This document shows positions 13,568 to 53,734 of a stretch of DNA of 64,000 nt, one piece after another. The notes below the pieces were generated by a model. The model was not told the DNA's origin and did not search any database. It saw nothing but the letters and a program-made list of their open reading frames with translations. Location of the stretch: positions 260,321 through 324,320 of the forward strand of contig JAHQXD010000002.1 of assembly GCA_019449655.1 (NCBI GenBank), written 5' to 3'. The position numbers and the translations under genes are program-made. Position 1 is the stretch's first letter, and each line of letters starts with the position of its first letter. The stretch is from Ferrigenium straubiae. Its GTDB lineage: Bacteria > Pseudomonadota > Gammaproteobacteria > Burkholderiales > Gallionellaceae.

Positions 13568-14797
13568 TTACCACGACGCGGCGGGCATGCCGCTCCACAG
13601 CTCGTGGATGTCGCGGATGCCCCACTTTCCCGAGTCTTCGTGCGAGACGATCTTGTCCTTGCAGGCGGGTTTCGACAAATCCACCATCTCCGGCGGGATC
13701 CGGGCGTTGGACTTGATCGAGAAGAACACTTTGACCACCGGGGTGAGCAGCGATTTTCCGCTTTGTTCGATGACTACGCCCAAATGACCGGATTCCAGCT
13801 TGACCAGCGAGCCGATCGGGTAGATACCGACGCTTTTGACGAAGGCATGAAATATCTCGGTGTCGAAATGCCCCTTGCTCCATTCCGCCATCTTGCGCAG
13901 CGATTCGGCGGGCTCCCAGCCGTTCTTGTAGGGGCGGTTGGAGGTGATCGCGTCGTAGACGTCGCACACCGCCCCCATCTTGGCATACAGGCTGATCTGC
14001 GCCTCCGTGAGCCGCTCCGGATAGCCGCTGCCGTCCACTTTTTCGTGGTGGTGCAGGCAGACGTCCAGCGCCGCTTGGTTGATGCCGTTACCTTCCAGCA
14101 GCATCCTGTGCCCCTCGACCGGGTGGTTCTTCACCGCCGCGAACTCGGTATCGGTCAGCTTGCCGGGCTTGTTGAGGATGCTCAGCGGGATCGTCATTTT
14201 GCCGACATCGTGCAGCAGCCCGGCCAAGCCGGCCTGGCGCACCTGCTCGTCGTCGAGCCCCAGTTGCCGCGCCAGGGACACCATCAGCGCGCACACTGCG
14301 ACCGAATGCATGTAGGTGTAATCATCCTTGTTTTTGAGGCGCGCCAGCCCGATCAATGCACCGGGATTGCGCATCACCGAGGTGGAGATTTCCTCGACGA
14401 TGGGCAGTGCGTCGTCGGAACTCAGCGCCTTGCCCATGCGCGCCTCCCTGAACATGGAGGAAACGGCCTGCTTGGATCTGGCGCAGATCTTGATGGCACG
14501 TGCGGCTTCCTGAGCGACATCGACGCGCTGAATTGTCTTGATGGCCGTATCGGCCTGTGCAAGCGTGGTTTCGACTTCCGCCGCGATCGCTTTCTCGTCT
14601 TCTCCGTCCGCGACGCCCAAACCTTTGGCGTCGTCTATCCATACTTCCTTGAGGCCGGTTGCGAGGAGGGTTTTCAGGTCGCTGGGGTTGTCCAGCAGGA
14701 AGGCGCCACGCCAGAACGGATGATCCATCCACGAGCCACACAACTCATGGACGAACATGCCCAGGCGCAGTTGTTTGACATGGATACGTATCAGCAC
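13568..14797 (-). CDS. HD-GYP domain protein, probable cyclic-di-GMP phosphodiesterase (DUF3391 N-terminus)
   Basis: A 409-residue soluble protein. Residues 1-120 look like the DUF3391 domain found before many HD-GYP domains. The HD-GYP domain has HDVGK with IPLSILNKPGKL after it and HHHEKVDGSGYP, the metal-binding and GYP motifs needed to hydrolyse cyclic-di-GMP. The start is a GTG. It is divergent from nothing: waaA ends just before it on the same strand, and ahcY follows. It may tune the switch between motile and attached life. Confidence 0.88.
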   Translation of the reverse strand: MLIRIHVKQLRLGMFVHELCGSWMDHPFWRGAFLLDNPSDLKTLLATGLKEVWIDDAKGLGVADGEDEKAIAAEVETTLAQADTAIKTIQRVDVAQEAARAIKICARSKQAVSSMFREARMGKALSSDDALPIVEEISTSVMRNPGALIGLARLKNKDDYTYMHSVAVCALMVSLARQLGLDDEQVRQAGLAGLLHDVGKMTIPLSILNKPGKLTDTEFAAVKNHPVEGHRMLLEGNGINQAALDVCLHHHEKVDGSGYPERLTEAQISLYAKMGAVCDVYDAITSNRPYKNGWEPAESLRKMAEWSKGHFDTEIFHAFVKSVGIYPIGSLVKLESGHLGVVIEQSGKSLLTPVVKVFFSIKSNARIPPEMVDLSKPACKDKIVSHEDSGKWGIRDIHELWSGMPAASW

Positions 14798-47444: not shown

Positions 47445-49106
47445 CTATTCGCGCGGGGATTTTTCCGCGCCTTCGAGGCGGACGATCATGTCCACGACGA
47501 ACTGCCGGAAGGACTCGTTTTCCGCGAGCTGTTTGCAGAATTCTGCGTCGTCTTTCAGCAGCAAGTCGGCGATGCGCGTGAGCGCGGCGCCCAGCTCGGC
47601 GCGCATCGCGTCCGGTACGTTCTTCCTTGCCTCCTGATAGCGCGGGTCGGCGGCGACCCTGGGCGCCATGTCCTCGGCAATCTGGCGCGCGATGCGGTTG
47701 CTGTCGGCGAAGAGCGCGCCGAATGGTTTGCCCATGCGGAAATTGTCCGCTCCCTTCCCGGCGGCGCGCTCCCCTTTCACCCTGTACACCTTCAGCGGAT
47801 AGGGGATGTCGCGGAGTTGCCCTTCCCCCAGGCTCCTGCAACCGAAATGCTTTGCCACCAGGCGATAGGTGTCCGCGCTCAGCGCGACTTCGCCGCTCTT
47901 CACCGCGAGGCGCAGGCGAATGGCGAGCCCCGATGTCAGGCCGATGGTGTCGGGAATGCCCGCGGCCGTGCCTGCGACGATCAGGCCGGTGTGGACGCCT
48001 GCGCGCACTTCGAGGGAGGGCGTCGCTTCGGCCGCGCACGCCAGCGCGGCCTGCACCGCCTGGCGCGCGGCGCTCTCGTCGGATACCGGATAGCCGAAAT
48101 AGGCCAGCAAGCCGCCGCCGTGCGCCTGGACGATATGTCCGGAGAAGCGCTGGATGATGCCGGTGCAGCACTTCTGGGGCGTTTGCAGCAGGGATAGGGC
48201 CCTGCTTGGATTTCCGGTCCGGGGGGACAATTCGCAGTACAGGACCGTCACGTGATGCCGCTCCGCCGAGAGCGGCGGAACGGAGGAGACCGGCGGCTTT
48301 CCTTTTGCATAGGCCCGATCCGGCTGGAATTCGCCTTTGCGGATGCGATCGGCCAGGCTCCGGGTCTTTTCGCCGGGGAGTATTCCCAGTTCTTTTTTCA
48401 GCGCGCGGCAGCAGGCGTCATACTGGGCGATGGCCGCGCCGTTCTGTCCGTTCAGCGCAAAAAGGCGGATTGCCCGGCGGTGCGCCTCCTCATTCCAGGG
48501 TTCCAGTTCTACATAGCGCAACGTGAACGGCAGCGCCCTGGTATAGGCTTTCGCCTGTTCGTGACAATCCGAGAGGCGTCCCAGCAGCGTGATGGCATGG
48601 CGGCGCATGGATTCGCGCTGCATCTGCAGCCAGTCCTCGAAATCCGGGCAGTCCGGCAGGGAAAGCTCCGCCATGAATTCCCCGCGGTAAAGCCCGGCCA
48701 TGTATTCCATTTTTGCGATGCAGGGATCGCAATACTGCGGGTAGGGCGTTTCCACGCAGGCGGGCACCGTGGCGGCAAATTCCACCGTGTCCATGCGATA
48801 CGGGCTGTCCGGGTTGAAGCACAGCCACTCGCGATTGGCCAGCAGGAAAGGGCGTGTGCCGGTGTCGCCGCCCAACGACTGGCGCAAATGGAAAAAAGTG
48901 TGGCGCAAATTGAATCGGGCAGCCTCGGCCGGCAAGTCCGGCCAGAAAAGTTCGGCCAGTGCTTCACGGCGGTGCTTGTGGCCTGCCTTGATCGCCAGGT
49001 AGACCAGCAGCGCAGTCATTTTTCCGCCGCTCAGGCCTGGAAGAGGCCTGGTTCCATGTCTGGCCAGAAAGGCGCCAAAGGTGGAGAGAGATAAGGTTTT
49101 CGTCAT
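47445..49106 (-). CDS. SARP/BTAD transcriptional regulator fused to a degenerate nucleotidyl-cyclase domain
   Basis: A 553-residue protein. Residues 1-100 look like the OmpR-like DNA-binding domain of SARP regulators (LSLSTFGAFL, ALAELFWPDLPAEAARFNLR), followed by a bacterial transcriptional activator domain to about 265 (YVELEPWNEEAHRRAIRLFA). Residues about 310-450 form a class III cyclase-like domain (VLYCELSP, VQAHGGGLLAYFGYP, VRAGVHTGLIVAG). Both metal aspartates are lost: Glu replaces one and GDG has become GGG, so catalysis is unlikely and a sensing role is inferred. The C-terminal 100 residues are helical and unknown. The start at 49106 has an AGG site. Confidence 0.85.
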   Translation of the reverse strand: MTKTLSLSTFGAFLARHGTRPLPGLSGGKMTALLVYLAIKAGHKHRREALAELFWPDLPAEAARFNLRHTFFHLRQSLGGDTGTRPFLLANREWLCFNPDSPYRMDTVEFAATVPACVETPYPQYCDPCIAKMEYMAGLYRGEFMAELSLPDCPDFEDWLQMQRESMRRHAITLLGRLSDCHEQAKAYTRALPFTLRYVELEPWNEEAHRRAIRLFALNGQNGAAIAQYDACCRALKKELGILPGEKTRSLADRIRKGEFQPDRAYAKGKPPVSSVPPLSAERHHVTVLYCELSPRTGNPSRALSLLQTPQKCCTGIIQRFSGHIVQAHGGGLLAYFGYPVSDESAARQAVQAALACAAEATPSLEVRAGVHTGLIVAGTAAGIPDTIGLTSGLAIRLRLAVKSGEVALSADTYRLVAKHFGCRSLGEGQLRDIPYPLKVYRVKGERAAGKGADNFRMGKPFGALFADSNRIARQIAEDMAPRVAADPRYQEARKNVPDAMRAELGAALTRIADLLLKDDAEFCKQLAENESFRQFVVDMIVRLEGAEKSPRE

Positions 49107-49158
49107 CGCGTACCTGTACCAGTTCTTTCCGGGCCGTTGATCCTGAAGGTTACCGAGC

Positions 49159-49217
49159 ACCAACGATACACCAACTGATGGCCTGGGGGAATGGTCTGAA
49201 CCAACGTTAGCCCAACG
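49159..49217. promoter_or_regulatory. Putative SARP operator: two pairs of heptamer direct repeats
   Basis: Heptamers ACCAACG (49159), ACCAACT (49170), ACCAACG (49200) and CCCAACG (49211) form two pairs, each with exactly 11 bp from start to start, and the pairs are 41 bp apart (about four helical turns). SARP regulators bind heptamer direct repeats with 11-bp spacing near promoters. The site lies in the gap between the SARP-cyclase gene and the divergent HD-GYP gene. Confidence 0.55.
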
Positions 49218-49278
49218 ATGCGCTTTTACTGTAGCAGTGGGTTGATACGGTTCAATTATGCAGTGGCCAAGGTAGAGC

Positions 49279-50748
49279 ATGAATACCAGCAGTTGTTTTT
49301 TCGAGAGAGTACAAGATGTTTGTCGTGAGATTGGTCAGGCAGCCTCGCTGGAATCGCTATACGAAAACCTCGTTCATTTCATTGCAAGAGCCTGCGGGTC
49401 TCCTGCTTCGGCGCTCATGACCGTTGCAACATACGGCGCAGCCAGCAACTCCTTCCGGGTTGCCCAGGGCACGGGGCGATTCTCCGATACCGCAGGCCAG
49501 ACCCTGCGCGATGAGCAAGTTCAGGAATTACTGCGCGACATCACTGGCCGGCGTTCGAGCCATTATGGCCGGAACGCAGTCGGGTTCTACCTCCCATGCA
49601 TCGAGAACTTTGCCGTACTTGTTTATATCGAGCTGCAGCAAGAGCTCGATGCAGAAAAAAGAGGGTTGCTCTCTTTTATCAACGACAAGGCTGCGAGCAC
49701 CATCCAGGTGCACGCTCTGACCAGACGGGCGGATCGAACCGGACGCGCCATGGTTGTCGCACTCGCCAATCTTGCTGAACACAAGGATCAAGATACCGGC
49801 GAACACGTTCTGCGCGTAGCCATCATGACCGATGAGATCGTTCAGGTGTTGAATGAGCTCGGGCACTACAAAAACCTGATCACCCGTGAATTCGGGCATT
49901 TCATCAGCACCGCCAGCATTCTTCACGATGTAGGCAAGGTCTCCATTCCGGAAAGCATCCTGCAGAAACCGGGGAAACTGGATCCGCAGGAGCGGAAAAT
50001 CATCGAGGAGCACACCCTGAAGGGCAAACAGGCACTGGAAAAAGCCAGCCGCATCCTCGATGGCGGCGACTATCTGCTCAGGCTTTCCGGCGAGATCGCC
50101 CTTTGCCATCACGAGCACTACAACGGCCAGGGATATCCGTCCCGGATCGCCAGCGATGAAATACCGCTTTCCGCGCGCATCGTCGGGCTGGTTGACGTTT
50201 TCGACGCGCTCGCCTCGGCAAGGCCATACAAGAAAGCATGGCCCGAGAAAGAGGTCATCGACTATATCGTCAGCCAGTCCGGCCGGCAGTTCGACCCGTT
50301 GATCGTGGAGGCTTTTCTGAAAGTCATGGACTGCCGCCGGGAGGCATCCCTGATTCGATGGACGAGCACGATGTCGGTAAAAGAGCCGTGCATGGACGAT
50401 GATCACCGCGTTTTGATCGCGCTCATCAATCAACTGGCCACGGCGGAAAAGATCGGAAACCGGCGCAACATCGAGTTCGTGCTGGACGAACTGGTCGATT
50501 ACGCGATTGACCACTTCAGCCGCGAAGAGCGCTATCTGCAGGATGCGGGGTATCCGTTCGAAAACCTGGTTGCACACAAGCTGCAGCATGCCGCCTTCAC
50601 CGAGACCATTCAGGATATCCGCTGGCAATACCAGCATGGGTTCTGCAGAAGAATCGACCGGGAGGTGCTGCTCTTTTTGCGCGACTGGCTGGGCAAGCAC
50701 ATCCTTGTCGAGGACATGAAATATGCCTCATCGCTGGGCAGCGCATAG
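49279..50748 (+). CDS. GAF-like / HD-GYP phosphodiesterase with C-terminal hemerythrin domain
   Basis: A 489-residue soluble protein. Residues 1-145 form a GAF-like sensor region. The HD-GYP domain (about 150-350) has HDVGKVSIPESILQKPGKL and HHEHYNGQGYP, with the metal ligands intact, so cyclic-di-GMP hydrolysis is likely. Residues about 365-485 are a hemerythrin domain (DDDHRVLIALI, HFSREERYL, HKLQHAAF, KHILVED), giving a diiron site that binds oxygen. It should link oxygen or redox state to cyclic-di-GMP. First of three plus-strand genes. Confidence 0.88.
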   Translation: MNTSSCFFERVQDVCREIGQAASLESLYENLVHFIARACGSPASALMTVATYGAASNSFRVAQGTGRFSDTAGQTLRDEQVQELLRDITGRRSSHYGRNAVGFYLPCIENFAVLVYIELQQELDAEKRGLLSFINDKAASTIQVHALTRRADRTGRAMVVALANLAEHKDQDTGEHVLRVAIMTDEIVQVLNELGHYKNLITREFGHFISTASILHDVGKVSIPESILQKPGKLDPQERKIIEEHTLKGKQALEKASRILDGGDYLLRLSGEIALCHHEHYNGQGYPSRIASDEIPLSARIVGLVDVFDALASARPYKKAWPEKEVIDYIVSQSGRQFDPLIVEAFLKVMDCRREASLIRWTSTMSVKEPCMDDDHRVLIALINQLATAEKIGNRRNIEFVLDELVDYAIDHFSREERYLQDAGYPFENLVAHKLQHAAFTETIQDIRWQYQHGFCRRIDREVLLFLRDWLGKHILVEDMKYASSLGSA

Positions 50749-50778
50749 ACAGCAATATTTTCAGCAAAGGGAATCACC

Positions 50779-52404
50779 GTGAAAACCAATTTACCCGTCA
50801 CCCAGACCGAGCGCCCCTTTCCCAAGGGGGAATACATCGTCTCAAAAACCGACCTCAAGGGCATAACGACCTACGCCAACGATACATTCGTCAAAATTTG
50901 CGGGTTTTCGACCGAGGAGCTGATCGGCAAGAACCACAATGTCGTCCGCCATCCCGACATGCCGCCGCAGGCGTTCGCCTGGCTGTGGAACACCCTTAGG
51001 GACGGGCGTCCGTGGCGGGGCGTGGTCAAGAACCGCTGCAAGAACGGCGATTATTACTGGGTCGATGCGCTGGTCGTGCCGGTGCGCAAGAACGACCAGA
51101 CCATCGGCTACATGTCGGTGCGCACGGAGCCGACGCGGGAACAGATTGCCGTCGCCGAACCCTTGTATAAATCGCTCAAGGCGAGCGGCGCGAGCATTCC
51201 GGAGCCCTCGCGCCGGCAGCGCATCTCGCTGTACACCAAGCTTGCCGGCCTGGTTGCCGCGATGGTTCTCCTGCAAGGGATCGCGGGGCTGATTTGGCTG
51301 CTCGGCGATGCGCTGGGGCTGCCCAAGGACGTAGCCAACAGCCTGTTGCTGCTGTCCGGCATCGGCGTCGTGGCCGCTGCGGCCACGCTGGCACTCCTGC
51401 AGAACTCCATGCTGACCGCCATCGACCGTACCACTCGGCACCTCGACCAGATCAGCCAGGGCGACCTCACCGGCGAGATTCCCATCCATCGGCTGGATGA
51501 GCTCGGCAAGCTCAACGACGGGCTGATTGCCATGCAGACCCATCTCAAGGTGATGATGGCCGAGATCGCCGAGATGGCCGGCGCGGTCGGCGATAACGCG
51601 AAAAATTTCAGCTGCGAGATGGAGGGGGTTTACCGGCAGTCGGAGCAACAGTCCGATTCCGTGTCCAACATCGCCGGCACCATGGTGGAGATGAGTGCTT
51701 CGGTAAGGGAGGTCGCCGATTCCGCGCGGGCGACCGCGGATGCAGTCGGCGAATCGGGCGATGAATTGCGCAAGGTGACGGCGCAAATGCATCAAAGCCG
51801 CGCGGCATCCAATGCCGTGGTGACTACCGTGTCCGAGGCAAGCGGCACCATGCTCAACTTGTTCCAGTCCATCCACCAGATCGGCACCATCACCCGGGGC
51901 ATCAAGGAGATCGCCGAACAAACTAATTTGCTGGCGCTCAATGCCGCCATCGAGGCTGCACGCGCCGGCGAGATGGGGCGGGGCTTCGCGGTCGTGGCGG
52001 ACGAGGTGCGCAAGCTGGCGGAAAGGTCGCGCGTCCAGACCGAGGAAATCGGCCGCACCGTGACGGCCATCCAGAGCGCCACCCAGATTGCGGTCGGAAG
52101 CATGGACTCCGCCGGCGAGCAGGTGAAGAAAACCGATGCCGAAATGGACGTGACCGAGAGCGAATTGCTCAAGGCGGCGGAGCATGGCGGGCGCATCATC
52201 GGCATGGCGCAGCAGATTGCGAGCGCGTCCGCGCAACAGTCGCAGGCGAGCGAGGAAGTCAGCGCCAACATCAGCAGGATAGCCGCCGCCATCGAAGCCA
52301 ACCTGGCCTCCGTCGCACAGACGCGCGAACGCGCCGGCGAGCTGGATGCGACCGCCATCAAGCTGCACGAGCTGATCCATTTTTTCCGCTATATCAGATC
52401 GTGA
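50779..52404 (+). CDS. PAS-domain methyl-accepting chemotaxis protein (Aer-like)
   Basis: A 541-residue receptor starting with GTG behind AAAGGGAA. The N-terminal PAS domain (TYANDTFVKICGFSTEELIG, HPDMPPQAFAWLW, NGDYYWVDALVVPV) is of the aerotaxis-receptor type, probably with a flavin. Two membrane helices lie at about 157-175 and 184-210, followed by a HAMP-like linker. The signalling tip is intact (EIAEQTNLLALNAAIEAARA). It should report redox or oxygen to the chemotaxis kinase. Confidence 0.92.
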   Translation: MKTNLPVTQTERPFPKGEYIVSKTDLKGITTYANDTFVKICGFSTEELIGKNHNVVRHPDMPPQAFAWLWNTLRDGRPWRGVVKNRCKNGDYYWVDALVVPVRKNDQTIGYMSVRTEPTREQIAVAEPLYKSLKASGASIPEPSRRQRISLYTKLAGLVAAMVLLQGIAGLIWLLGDALGLPKDVANSLLLLSGIGVVAAAATLALLQNSMLTAIDRTTRHLDQISQGDLTGEIPIHRLDELGKLNDGLIAMQTHLKVMMAEIAEMAGAVGDNAKNFSCEMEGVYRQSEQQSDSVSNIAGTMVEMSASVREVADSARATADAVGESGDELRKVTAQMHQSRAASNAVVTTVSEASGTMLNLFQSIHQIGTITRGIKEIAEQTNLLALNAAIEAARAGEMGRGFAVVADEVRKLAERSRVQTEEIGRTVTAIQSATQIAVGSMDSAGEQVKKTDAEMDVTESELLKAAEHGGRIIGMAQQIASASAQQSQASEEVSANISRIAAAIEANLASVAQTRERAGELDATAIKLHELIHFFRYIRS

Positions 52405-52447
52405 CTGCAACGGGGTACTTCGTGCAACGCAAGAAAGGGAGAGCCTG

Positions 52448-53734
52448 ATGGCGGCGGCGCATGCCTTGGCCTGGGGCGAACAGCTGGAGACGGGGCTGGA
52501 TAGCGTGGACAGCCAGCACCGGCGGCTCATCGCGATCATCAATGCGCTGAGCAGCCTGCACGAGCAGGGGGCTGCGGCCGAGGAGCTTGCGGCCGTTCTC
52601 GCCGAGCTGCGCGACTACACGGTGTACCACTTCCAGCATGAAGCCGACCTGATGCAATCCCTGCCGGTCAACCCGGCCAACCGGGAGGCTCATCTCAAGG
52701 CGCACCAGGGATTCGTCGATCTCATCGTGCGTGCCGGAGAAATGATCGCGACCAACCCCAGGGATGTCACCGACCATTTGCTGGCCTTCCTGGTGAAATG
52801 GCTGGTGCACCACATCACCGGCGTGGACGCGCGCATGGCCAGGGAAATTTTTGCGCTGCGCTCCGGTGTCGCTGCCGCGCAAGCGGGGCTTGCGGAGAAT
52901 CCGCTCCACGATGCGCTCGTCGACACGGTCAGCAACCTTTACGACAGCATCGGCGCGCGCACCTTCGAGATTCTCGAATTGAACCGCCAATTGCAGATTT
53001 ACCACGACGCACAGCAGGAAGAAAACGCGCTGGCGCAGGACATCATCCTGCGGCTGATGAAGCGCGGCGGTTTATCCGGCTCGCAACTGCATTACTGGTT
53101 TGTCCCCACCGCCACTTTCAGCGGCGACATCATTGCCGCTATCCCTAGCCCCGGAGACCGTTTCTATGCATTGATGGCGGATGCCACGGGCCATGGCCTT
53201 GCCGCGGCCATCACAGTTCTGCCGGTGCTGTCGACGTTCCACGCCATGGCCGAGCACGGCCATCCCATCGGGGAAATTGTTGCCGAAATCAACCGGAATT
53301 TGCGCGCAACCTTGCCGGTTGACCGTTTTGTGGCGGCTGCCCTGCTGCACATCGACGAAGCGGCGGGCACGGCCGAAGTCTGGATCGGCGGCATGCCCGA
53401 TCTGCTGCTGCTGAATCCGGAGGGGATGGTGGTGCGCAGGATGAGTTCGCAGCACCTGCCGCTGGGCATCGTCGATTCCGGTGACGGTATGGCCGCCACT
53501 GCCAGGATTGCCTGGCCAGCGGGCAGCCAGATCGCGATGTATTCCGACGGCCTGATCGAGGCCTCCAGCGAGGCGGGCGAGATGTTCGGCATCGAGCGGC
53601 TGTGCAAGGCGTTGCTGGCTGCCCCCGCGGATCGGCGCGTGGCCGCAGTGCAGGATGCGGTAACGGCGCATATCGGCCCGACCGCGCCGCACGACGACAT
53701 ATCGCTGATGCTGATCGATTGTAAAAATGCCTGA
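52448..53734 (+). CDS. Hemerythrin-SpoIIE/PP2C phosphatase fusion
   Basis: A 428-residue protein. Residues 1-135 are a hemerythrin domain (SVDSQHRRLIAII, YHFQHEADLM, HLKAHQGF, WLVHHITGVD), all diiron ligands visible. A helical linker leads to a RsbU/SpoIIE-type PP2C serine phosphatase (about 195-425) with metal-binding ADATGHGLAAAI, MYSDGLIEA and PHDDISLMLI. Such phosphatases act on anti-sigma-factor antagonists. An oxygen-controlled phosphatase is inferred; no partner STAS protein is seen nearby. GGGAGAG precedes the start. Confidence 0.88.
   Translation: MAAAHALAWGEQLETGLDSVDSQHRRLIAIINALSSLHEQGAAAEELAAVLAELRDYTVYHFQHEADLMQSLPVNPANREAHLKAHQGFVDLIVRAGEMIATNPRDVTDHLLAFLVKWLVHHITGVDARMAREIFALRSGVAAAQAGLAENPLHDALVDTVSNLYDSIGARTFEILELNRQLQIYHDAQQEENALAQDIILRLMKRGGLSGSQLHYWFVPTATFSGDIIAAIPSPGDRFYALMADATGHGLAAAITVLPVLSTFHAMAEHGHPIGEIVAEINRNLRATLPVDRFVAAALLHIDEAAGTAEVWIGGMPDLLLLNPEGMVVRRMSSQHLPLGIVDSGDGMAATARIAWPAGSQIAMYSDGLIEASSEAGEMFGIERLCKALLAAPADRRVAAVQDAVTAHIGPTAPHDDISLMLIDCKNA

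Follow-up and report, generated by a model that had tools for sequence, protein, structure and literature searches.

We describe three consecutive genes (positions 49279-53734) in a 64,000-nucleotide stretch of DNA, referred to here as the window, from the Gallionellaceae bacterium Ferrigenium straubiae (contig JAHQXD010000002.1, positions 260,321 to 324,320; the genome has 2.66 Mb in 5 contigs). The genes encode an HD-GYP protein with a C-terminal hemerythrin (Hr) domain, an Aer-like methyl-accepting chemotaxis protein (MCP), and a protein in which an Hr domain precedes a helical linker and a SpoIIE-type PP2C phosphatase (Hr-PP2C). What is new is the rare Hr-PP2C fusion together with the linker it shares with other hemerythrin proteins; hemerythrins near chemotaxis genes were already known. 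There is about an even chance, in our judgment, that Hr-PP2C is a natural sensor swap, in which a diiron hemerythrin, together with its transmitter helix of a kind otherwise found on kinases and diguanylate cyclases, was joined in register within the coiled coil to a SpoIIE-type phosphatase to make an oxygen- or redox-gated partner switch. If this is true, Hr-PP2C would extend the known hemerythrin outputs to protein dephosphorylation, the characterized ones being MCP, cyclase, HD-GYP and P-type ATPase in the portion of a 2022 review considered here (PMC9388753).

The Hr-PP2C fusion and its occurrence

Hr-PP2C (52448-53734, + strand) has Pfam matches to Hemerythrin (2.8e-12) and SpoIIE (4e-40) and is a predicted protein phosphatase. 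The ligand columns H-H-E-H-H-H-D (five His, one Glu, one Asp) are complete in its Hr domain and in that of the HD-GYP protein, as they are in five aligned orthologs (L079, L130, L081, L082 and L083). The sequence-only reading of this DNA had placed two diiron sensors at opposite ends of the chain on different outputs, and the presence of 7/7 ligands in both, with no hemerythrin in the MCP between them, bears this out.

The Asp residues of the SGD, ADATGHG, SDGLIE and HDDIS motifs of SpoIIE-type PP2C proteins are present and are invariant in 5/5 Hr-PP2C sequences; presumably they include metal ligands, as in the SpoIIE family. Retention of these residues makes it quite improbable that the PP2C part is a pseudo-phosphatase or an adaptor, as in RssB proteins, even though the best matches among solved PP2C structures, 3es2 and 3eq2 (probable two-component response regulator) and Rv1364c, point in that direction; we take 3es2 and 3eq2 to be of the RssB type.

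Among 120 family genomes, full-length orthologs of Hr-PP2C were found in two besides the window (G034, 72% identical; G005, 67%). Two short peptide patterns run against 84,980 species genomes, a search that reaches close relatives only, gave four records in all besides the window (72, 67, 67 and 64%), in three distinct lineages: Nitrosomonadales nzgw565, Gallionellaceae BIN13, Methylophilaceae MTYP and a groundwater betaproteobacterium (64%). The MTYP protein is 99.8% identical to that of BIN13. Genes neighboring the two records (L128 and L129) have 99-100% protein identity, and one name or bin may therefore be wrong. No other full-length Hr-PP2C was present among the best matches listed for 399 genomes of the order and 369 of the class, with at most four candidates scored per genome.

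Linker and estimated junction

Relatives match Hr-PP2C either over the Hr domain and linker (approximately residues 4-205) or over the phosphatase part, and over both in the orthologs only; the architectures of the matching open reading frames (ORFs) were checked with Pfam for a subset. Most matches to the phosphatase part begin within residues 150-190 and a few near residue 110; with identities of 27-32%, two cyclase alignments extend as far as residues 278 and 292. The Hr domain and linker are similar to the N-terminal Hr and linker of hemerythrin kinases and Hr-GGDEF proteins of the family, with the linker common to these and Hr-PP2C up to about residue 186. A hidden Markov model (HMM) of the linker was built from 11 hemerythrin kinase or cyclase proteins with the Hr domains removed; the kinase or GGDEF output is Pfam-confirmed in eight of them, while L091, L092 and L101 are kinases by length and likeness only. 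With E-values from 3.8e-10 to 2.5e-7, the model recognized each of the four Hr-PP2C proteins tried. It matched none of the 25 other PP2C proteins among the 29 available, where the lowest E was 0.31, and the lowest E in 200 shuffles was 0.27.

The phosphatase part resembles REC-PAS-PP2C (L014) and REC-PP2C (L016) proteins. Its closest non-orthologous counterpart in the family genomes, 48% identical, belongs to a REC-PAS-PP2C protein of G111, and the two proteins have a YHDAQ-EEN-LAQ-II run in common ahead of the catalytic domain. Because the linker is like that of the hemerythrin kinases and cyclases and the run common with G111 stands before the catalytic domain, we estimate that the junction falls around residues 175-195, within a predicted coiled coil. 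The linker itself was assigned to residues 132-195 (52841-53032, + strand) from the HMM, the BLAST ranges and a helix at residues 152-205 in a structure model of low confidence.

Coiled-coil linkers were recently proposed to permit the exchange of sensors among PP2C phosphatases, cyclases and kinases (PMC12143880, 2025); the term hemerythrin is absent from the main text of that paper. A sensor swap in Hr-PP2C is what this proposal, in the portions considered, would predict. The present family offers a case of it with a metal sensor, and since similar linkers stand on three outputs and a junction can be estimated, the rule of exchangeable linkers becomes testable by swapping. An earlier network of the signaling helix (S-helix) had a hemerythrin node and PP2C among its outputs (PMC1592074, 2006); we compared that paper by its text, without the figure, and in the text considered hemerythrin occurs only as a figure-legend abbreviation and in a methods list. 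The hemerythrin histidine kinases and Bhr-DGC differ from Hr-PP2C in their output, HisKA-HATPase or GGDEF instead of PP2C, and the likeness of Hr and linker applies to the Hr-kinases and Hr-GGDEF proteins of the family, the Vibrio Bhr-DGC being outside the alignment. No paper joining hemerythrin with SpoIIE, or hemerythrin with HsbA, was found in the literature searched, which is weak evidence as most subscription journals fall outside it.

A putative partner for the phosphatase

Hr-PP2C is built like the RsbU/RsbP-type phosphatases of partner-switching systems, in which a sensor at the N-terminus and a helical linker precede a SpoIIE-type PP2C; it differs from them in having hemerythrin as sensor and no partner genes adjoining. 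From what is known of the family, it may act on a STAS protein. The source genome has five STAS matches and five above-cut-off HATPase_c_2 matches, all of them elsewhere, and codes for two other SpoIIE proteins, a PAS-PP2C-HATPase_c_2 and a REC-PP2C. The former lies in the order CheR-CheD-CheB-STAS-[PAS-PP2C-HATPase]-FlhB-FlhA (L157; C5:540001-548000), so that one putative partner-switch pair sits among chemotaxis and flagellar genes. Its PAS domain is 50% identical to the PAS domain of the window MCP.

A change in the oxidation state of the Hr-PP2C diiron site would act on the dimeric coil and on the switch of the phosphatase, leading to dephosphorylation of a phosphorylated STAS partner, for which the protein coded between cheB and the PP2C gene upstream of flhB is a candidate. 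Hr-PP2C may thus exert redox or oxygen control over a STAS-type partner switch, perhaps acting on motility. Oxygen or redox state as the signal is our inference, as are the exact position of the junction, the direction in which the protein responds, the STAS substrate and any crosstalk.

The REC-PP2C gene of the source genome (L158; C1:134001-146000) follows, on one strand, a gene for a hybrid kinase with Hpt and a REC-HD-GYP gene, which overlaps it by 4 bases; this genome therefore has two places where HD-GYP and PP2C outputs lie close together. A further such pair, on contig C74 of G019, was seen in match lists only.

The HD-GYP-hemerythrin protein

The first gene (49279-50748, + strand) codes for a predicted cyclic di-GMP phosphodiesterase with Pfam matches to DUF3369 (4.9e-12), HD_5 (1.1e-29) and Hemerythrin (3.8e-12). 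HD, HHE and GYP motifs are visible in the translation and were aligned with solved HD-GYP enzymes; the Hr domain (PF01814) occupies residues 372-483 (50392-50727, + strand). Of the earlier description as GAF-HD-GYP-hemerythrin, the HD-GYP and hemerythrin parts held, and the GAF label gives way to DUF3369, which is GAF-like; in a relative (L088), GAF_3 weakly overlaps DUF3369.

Orthologs were found in G032 (66%), G086 (63%) and G034 (45%) among the 120 family genomes. Twelve regions were fetched in addition, where match lists suggested the same fusion or had a long hemerythrin ORF, and local models identified HD-GYP with a C-terminal hemerythrin in nine further ORFs of nine family genomes (L179-L187, 33-36% identical) and no HD-GYP in the other three regions (L188-L190). 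By alignment, four of the nine have all ligands and the other five lack one His (S, Q or K instead). In G086, genes for an Hr-kinase, a REC protein and the HD-GYP-Hr protein follow one another on one strand. In G053 a hemerythrin-HATPase protein is followed by a DUF3369-HD-GYP protein that lacks Hr and matches REC below the cut-off, and an Aer-like MCP (33%) is located 1.4 kb away. On the basis of these gene orders, a two-protein pathway from hemerythrin to HD-GYP and a fused version may coexist in the family.

Bhr-HD-GYP of the iron-oxidizing bacterium Ferrovum sp. PN-J185 is active only when ferrous (Kitanishi et al. 2020, as related in the portion of PMC9388753 considered). It is likewise a hemerythrin-HD-GYP fusion with complete diiron ligands; its Hr is N-terminal, whereas in the window protein the Hr is C-terminal and DUF3369 stands ahead of HD-GYP. 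By analogy, the window protein would hydrolyze cyclic di-GMP when its diiron site is reduced.

The chemoreceptor and the older gene arrangement

The second gene (50779-52404, + strand, GTG start) codes for a protein with Pfam matches to PAS_3 (3.9e-16), HAMP (9.2e-8) and MCPsignal (4.3e-40) and, as read from hydrophobic segments in the translation, a membrane segment. This is the PAS-transmembrane-HAMP-MCP architecture of Aer, to which we liken it by domains alone and from which it differs in adjoining hemerythrin regulators; it would mediate energy taxis. Pfam thus confirmed the three consecutive genes of the sequence-only reading. They lie on one strand with intergenic gaps of 30 and 43 bases and for this reason probably form a single transcript; a promoter and terminator scan of the cluster gave no more signals than shuffles.

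The best MCP orthologs in the family genomes are those of G088 (87%), G019 and G104 (both 52%) and G024 (49%), contig ends removing most of the sequence upstream of the MCP in the last three. In G088, which is of the same genus, the MCP gene and a 67% ortholog of the SARP gene that lies divergently upstream in the window are divergent neighbors approximately 610 bases apart. The interval is collinear with window blocks 48901-49315 (70%), 50275-50422 (62%) and 50641-52404 (82%), the first and last of which extend into the SARP and MCP genes, respectively. Residues 334-394 of the HD-GYP-Hr protein (P0001) match the interval with E 3e-6, and residues 469-484, in a different frame, with E 7e-4 (values for this interval alone, computed without low-complexity or composition corrections); the highest local score, 71, compares with maxima of 54 for 300 shuffled DNAs and 50 for 300 shuffled proteins. 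Together, the collinear blocks and protein matches indicate that SARP and MCP were formerly separated by an HD-GYP-Hr gene, which decayed in G088. SARP, HD-GYP-Hr and MCP are thus an older arrangement, with the adjacency of HD-GYP-Hr and MCP predating the split from G088, and the Hr-PP2C gene came or went separately. No remnant of Hr-PP2C was detected 3' of the G088 MCP, where the best match, 30 residues long with E 0.02, is not significant. A new insertion of the HD-GYP-Hr gene between SARP and MCP was considered and rejected, as the remnant indicates loss in G088.

A hemerythrin ORF stands directly 3' of an Aer-like MCP in G019 and G032 (MCPs 52% and 40% identical), that of G019 having lost two ligands and giving no Pfam match. 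In a count over 25 Aer-like MCP loci of 22 genomes, with the expectation taken from 186 hemerythrin matches and a limit of 3 kb chosen post hoc, Pfam-passing hemerythrin ORFs were within reach at two loci (G032 and G053; about 0.45 expected, P 0.075), and at four when the degenerate G019 hemerythrin and the G088 remnant are added (P 0.0012).

Do the three genes act together?

Our working proposal is that the three genes code for regulators with oxygen or redox input whose outputs all bear on the choice between motile and sessile life, Hr-PP2C being a redox-gated STAS phosphatase; we consider it evenly poised between right and wrong. Several results weigh against it. The three-gene set was found in the window only, and in none of the relative loci read (ten around the orthologs and G053, L079-L088, with L127-L130 and L159-L178) do intact orthologs of any two of the three genes stand together. 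G034 has both Hr genes on different contigs, and in the four other Hr-PP2C records no MCP similar to that of the window and no HD-GYP-Hr gene adjoins. Proximity of hemerythrins to Aer-like MCPs is only weakly above chance. Among the window neighbors scanned, no STAS or anti-sigma gene lies beside Hr-PP2C. Confidence in the Hr-PP2C structure model (mean pLDDT 65, pTM 0.49) is too low for further use, and the linker test is partly circular, because the seeds were picked for matches extending into the linker, whose limits came from an alignment containing Hr-PP2C rows. Lastly, with flanks of up to 1.5 kb considered, local models place an HD-GYP ORF at 1/29 PP2C loci of the family (L012-L040). A general adjacency of HD-GYP and PP2C genes was rejected on this count, taken with the source-genome pair and the one on contig C74 of G019.

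Three independent sensors in a sensor-rich genome, brought side by side by gene gain and loss without joint function, are a tentative alternative to which we give a chance somewhat short of even. It accords with the separation of the orthologs in the relative loci, with the loss of HD-GYP-Hr in G088, which nonetheless keeps SARP and MCP, and with the abundance of hemerythrins (186 matches in 22 relatives, ~3 per Mb). It accounts less readily for the tight one-strand spacing of the three genes, for the G088 remnant, which makes the HD-GYP-Hr/MCP adjacency older than the split, and for the hemerythrin ORFs directly behind Aer-like MCPs in G019 and G032, although that of G019 is degenerate. The three-gene set is a local assembly and a plausible local regulon, not a conserved integrated module. 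Of the integrated module in the sequence-only reading, the shared history of SARP, HD-GYP-Hr and MCP stands, and the conservation of the set in relatives does not, the orthologs being largely scattered.

It is also possible, though rather less likely than not, that the Hr domains sense cellular redox, peroxide or nitric oxide rather than oxygen, or serve in iron handling; autoxidation by O2 would make them report oxygen anyway. For Sideroxydans and Gallionella, clusters in which multi-domain hemerythrins accompany chemotaxis and sensing genes were reported earlier (PMC3770913); the table columns there, in the part covered, are PAS/PAC, GGDEF, histidine kinase and MCP, with none for HD-GYP or PP2C. 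The source genome itself has 10 Hemerythrin profile matches, nine of them above the family cut-off.

The SARP gene and other observations

The divergent ORF at 47445-49280 (- strand) codes for a SARP-type protein (BTAD 3.1e-16 in Pfam) with a weak guanylate-cyclase-like match (5.9e-4, below the Pfam cut-off). Its true start is very probably near 49106, since the G088 ortholog aligns from residue 58 only and the upstream extension has two stops in G088; the gene would then span 47445-49106, about 170 bases from the HD-GYP-Hr gene. The sequence-only reading had placed SARP in an oxygen-response module; nothing in the analysis ties it to oxygen. Besides the G088 protein, the 120 family genomes contain one ortholog fragment, in G004 (L156:9863-10261; 64% over residues 58-191), with no match to the other three window genes in the surrounding 19 kb, and relatives at 48-50% within longer ORFs of G086, G100, G045 and G048.

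At L085:1631-2059, a degenerate single-domain hemerythrin (2/7 ligands replaced, no Pfam match) shares four bases with the end of an Aer-like MCP gene, and an HD-GYP gene is next. Immediately behind another Aer-like MCP, L160:6724-9594 codes for a HAMP-PAS-GGDEF-EAL protein with a C-terminal hemerythrin; a second hemerythrin-EAL protein, L106, has an N-terminal hemerythrin and PAS-GGDEF-EAL. According to the portion of the 2022 review considered (PMC9388753), no hemerythrin EAL phosphodiesterase had been discovered. Elsewhere in the window, 13568-14797 codes for a DUF3391-HD-GYP protein, and its 77% ortholog in G019 lies two ORFs past the MCP ortholog.

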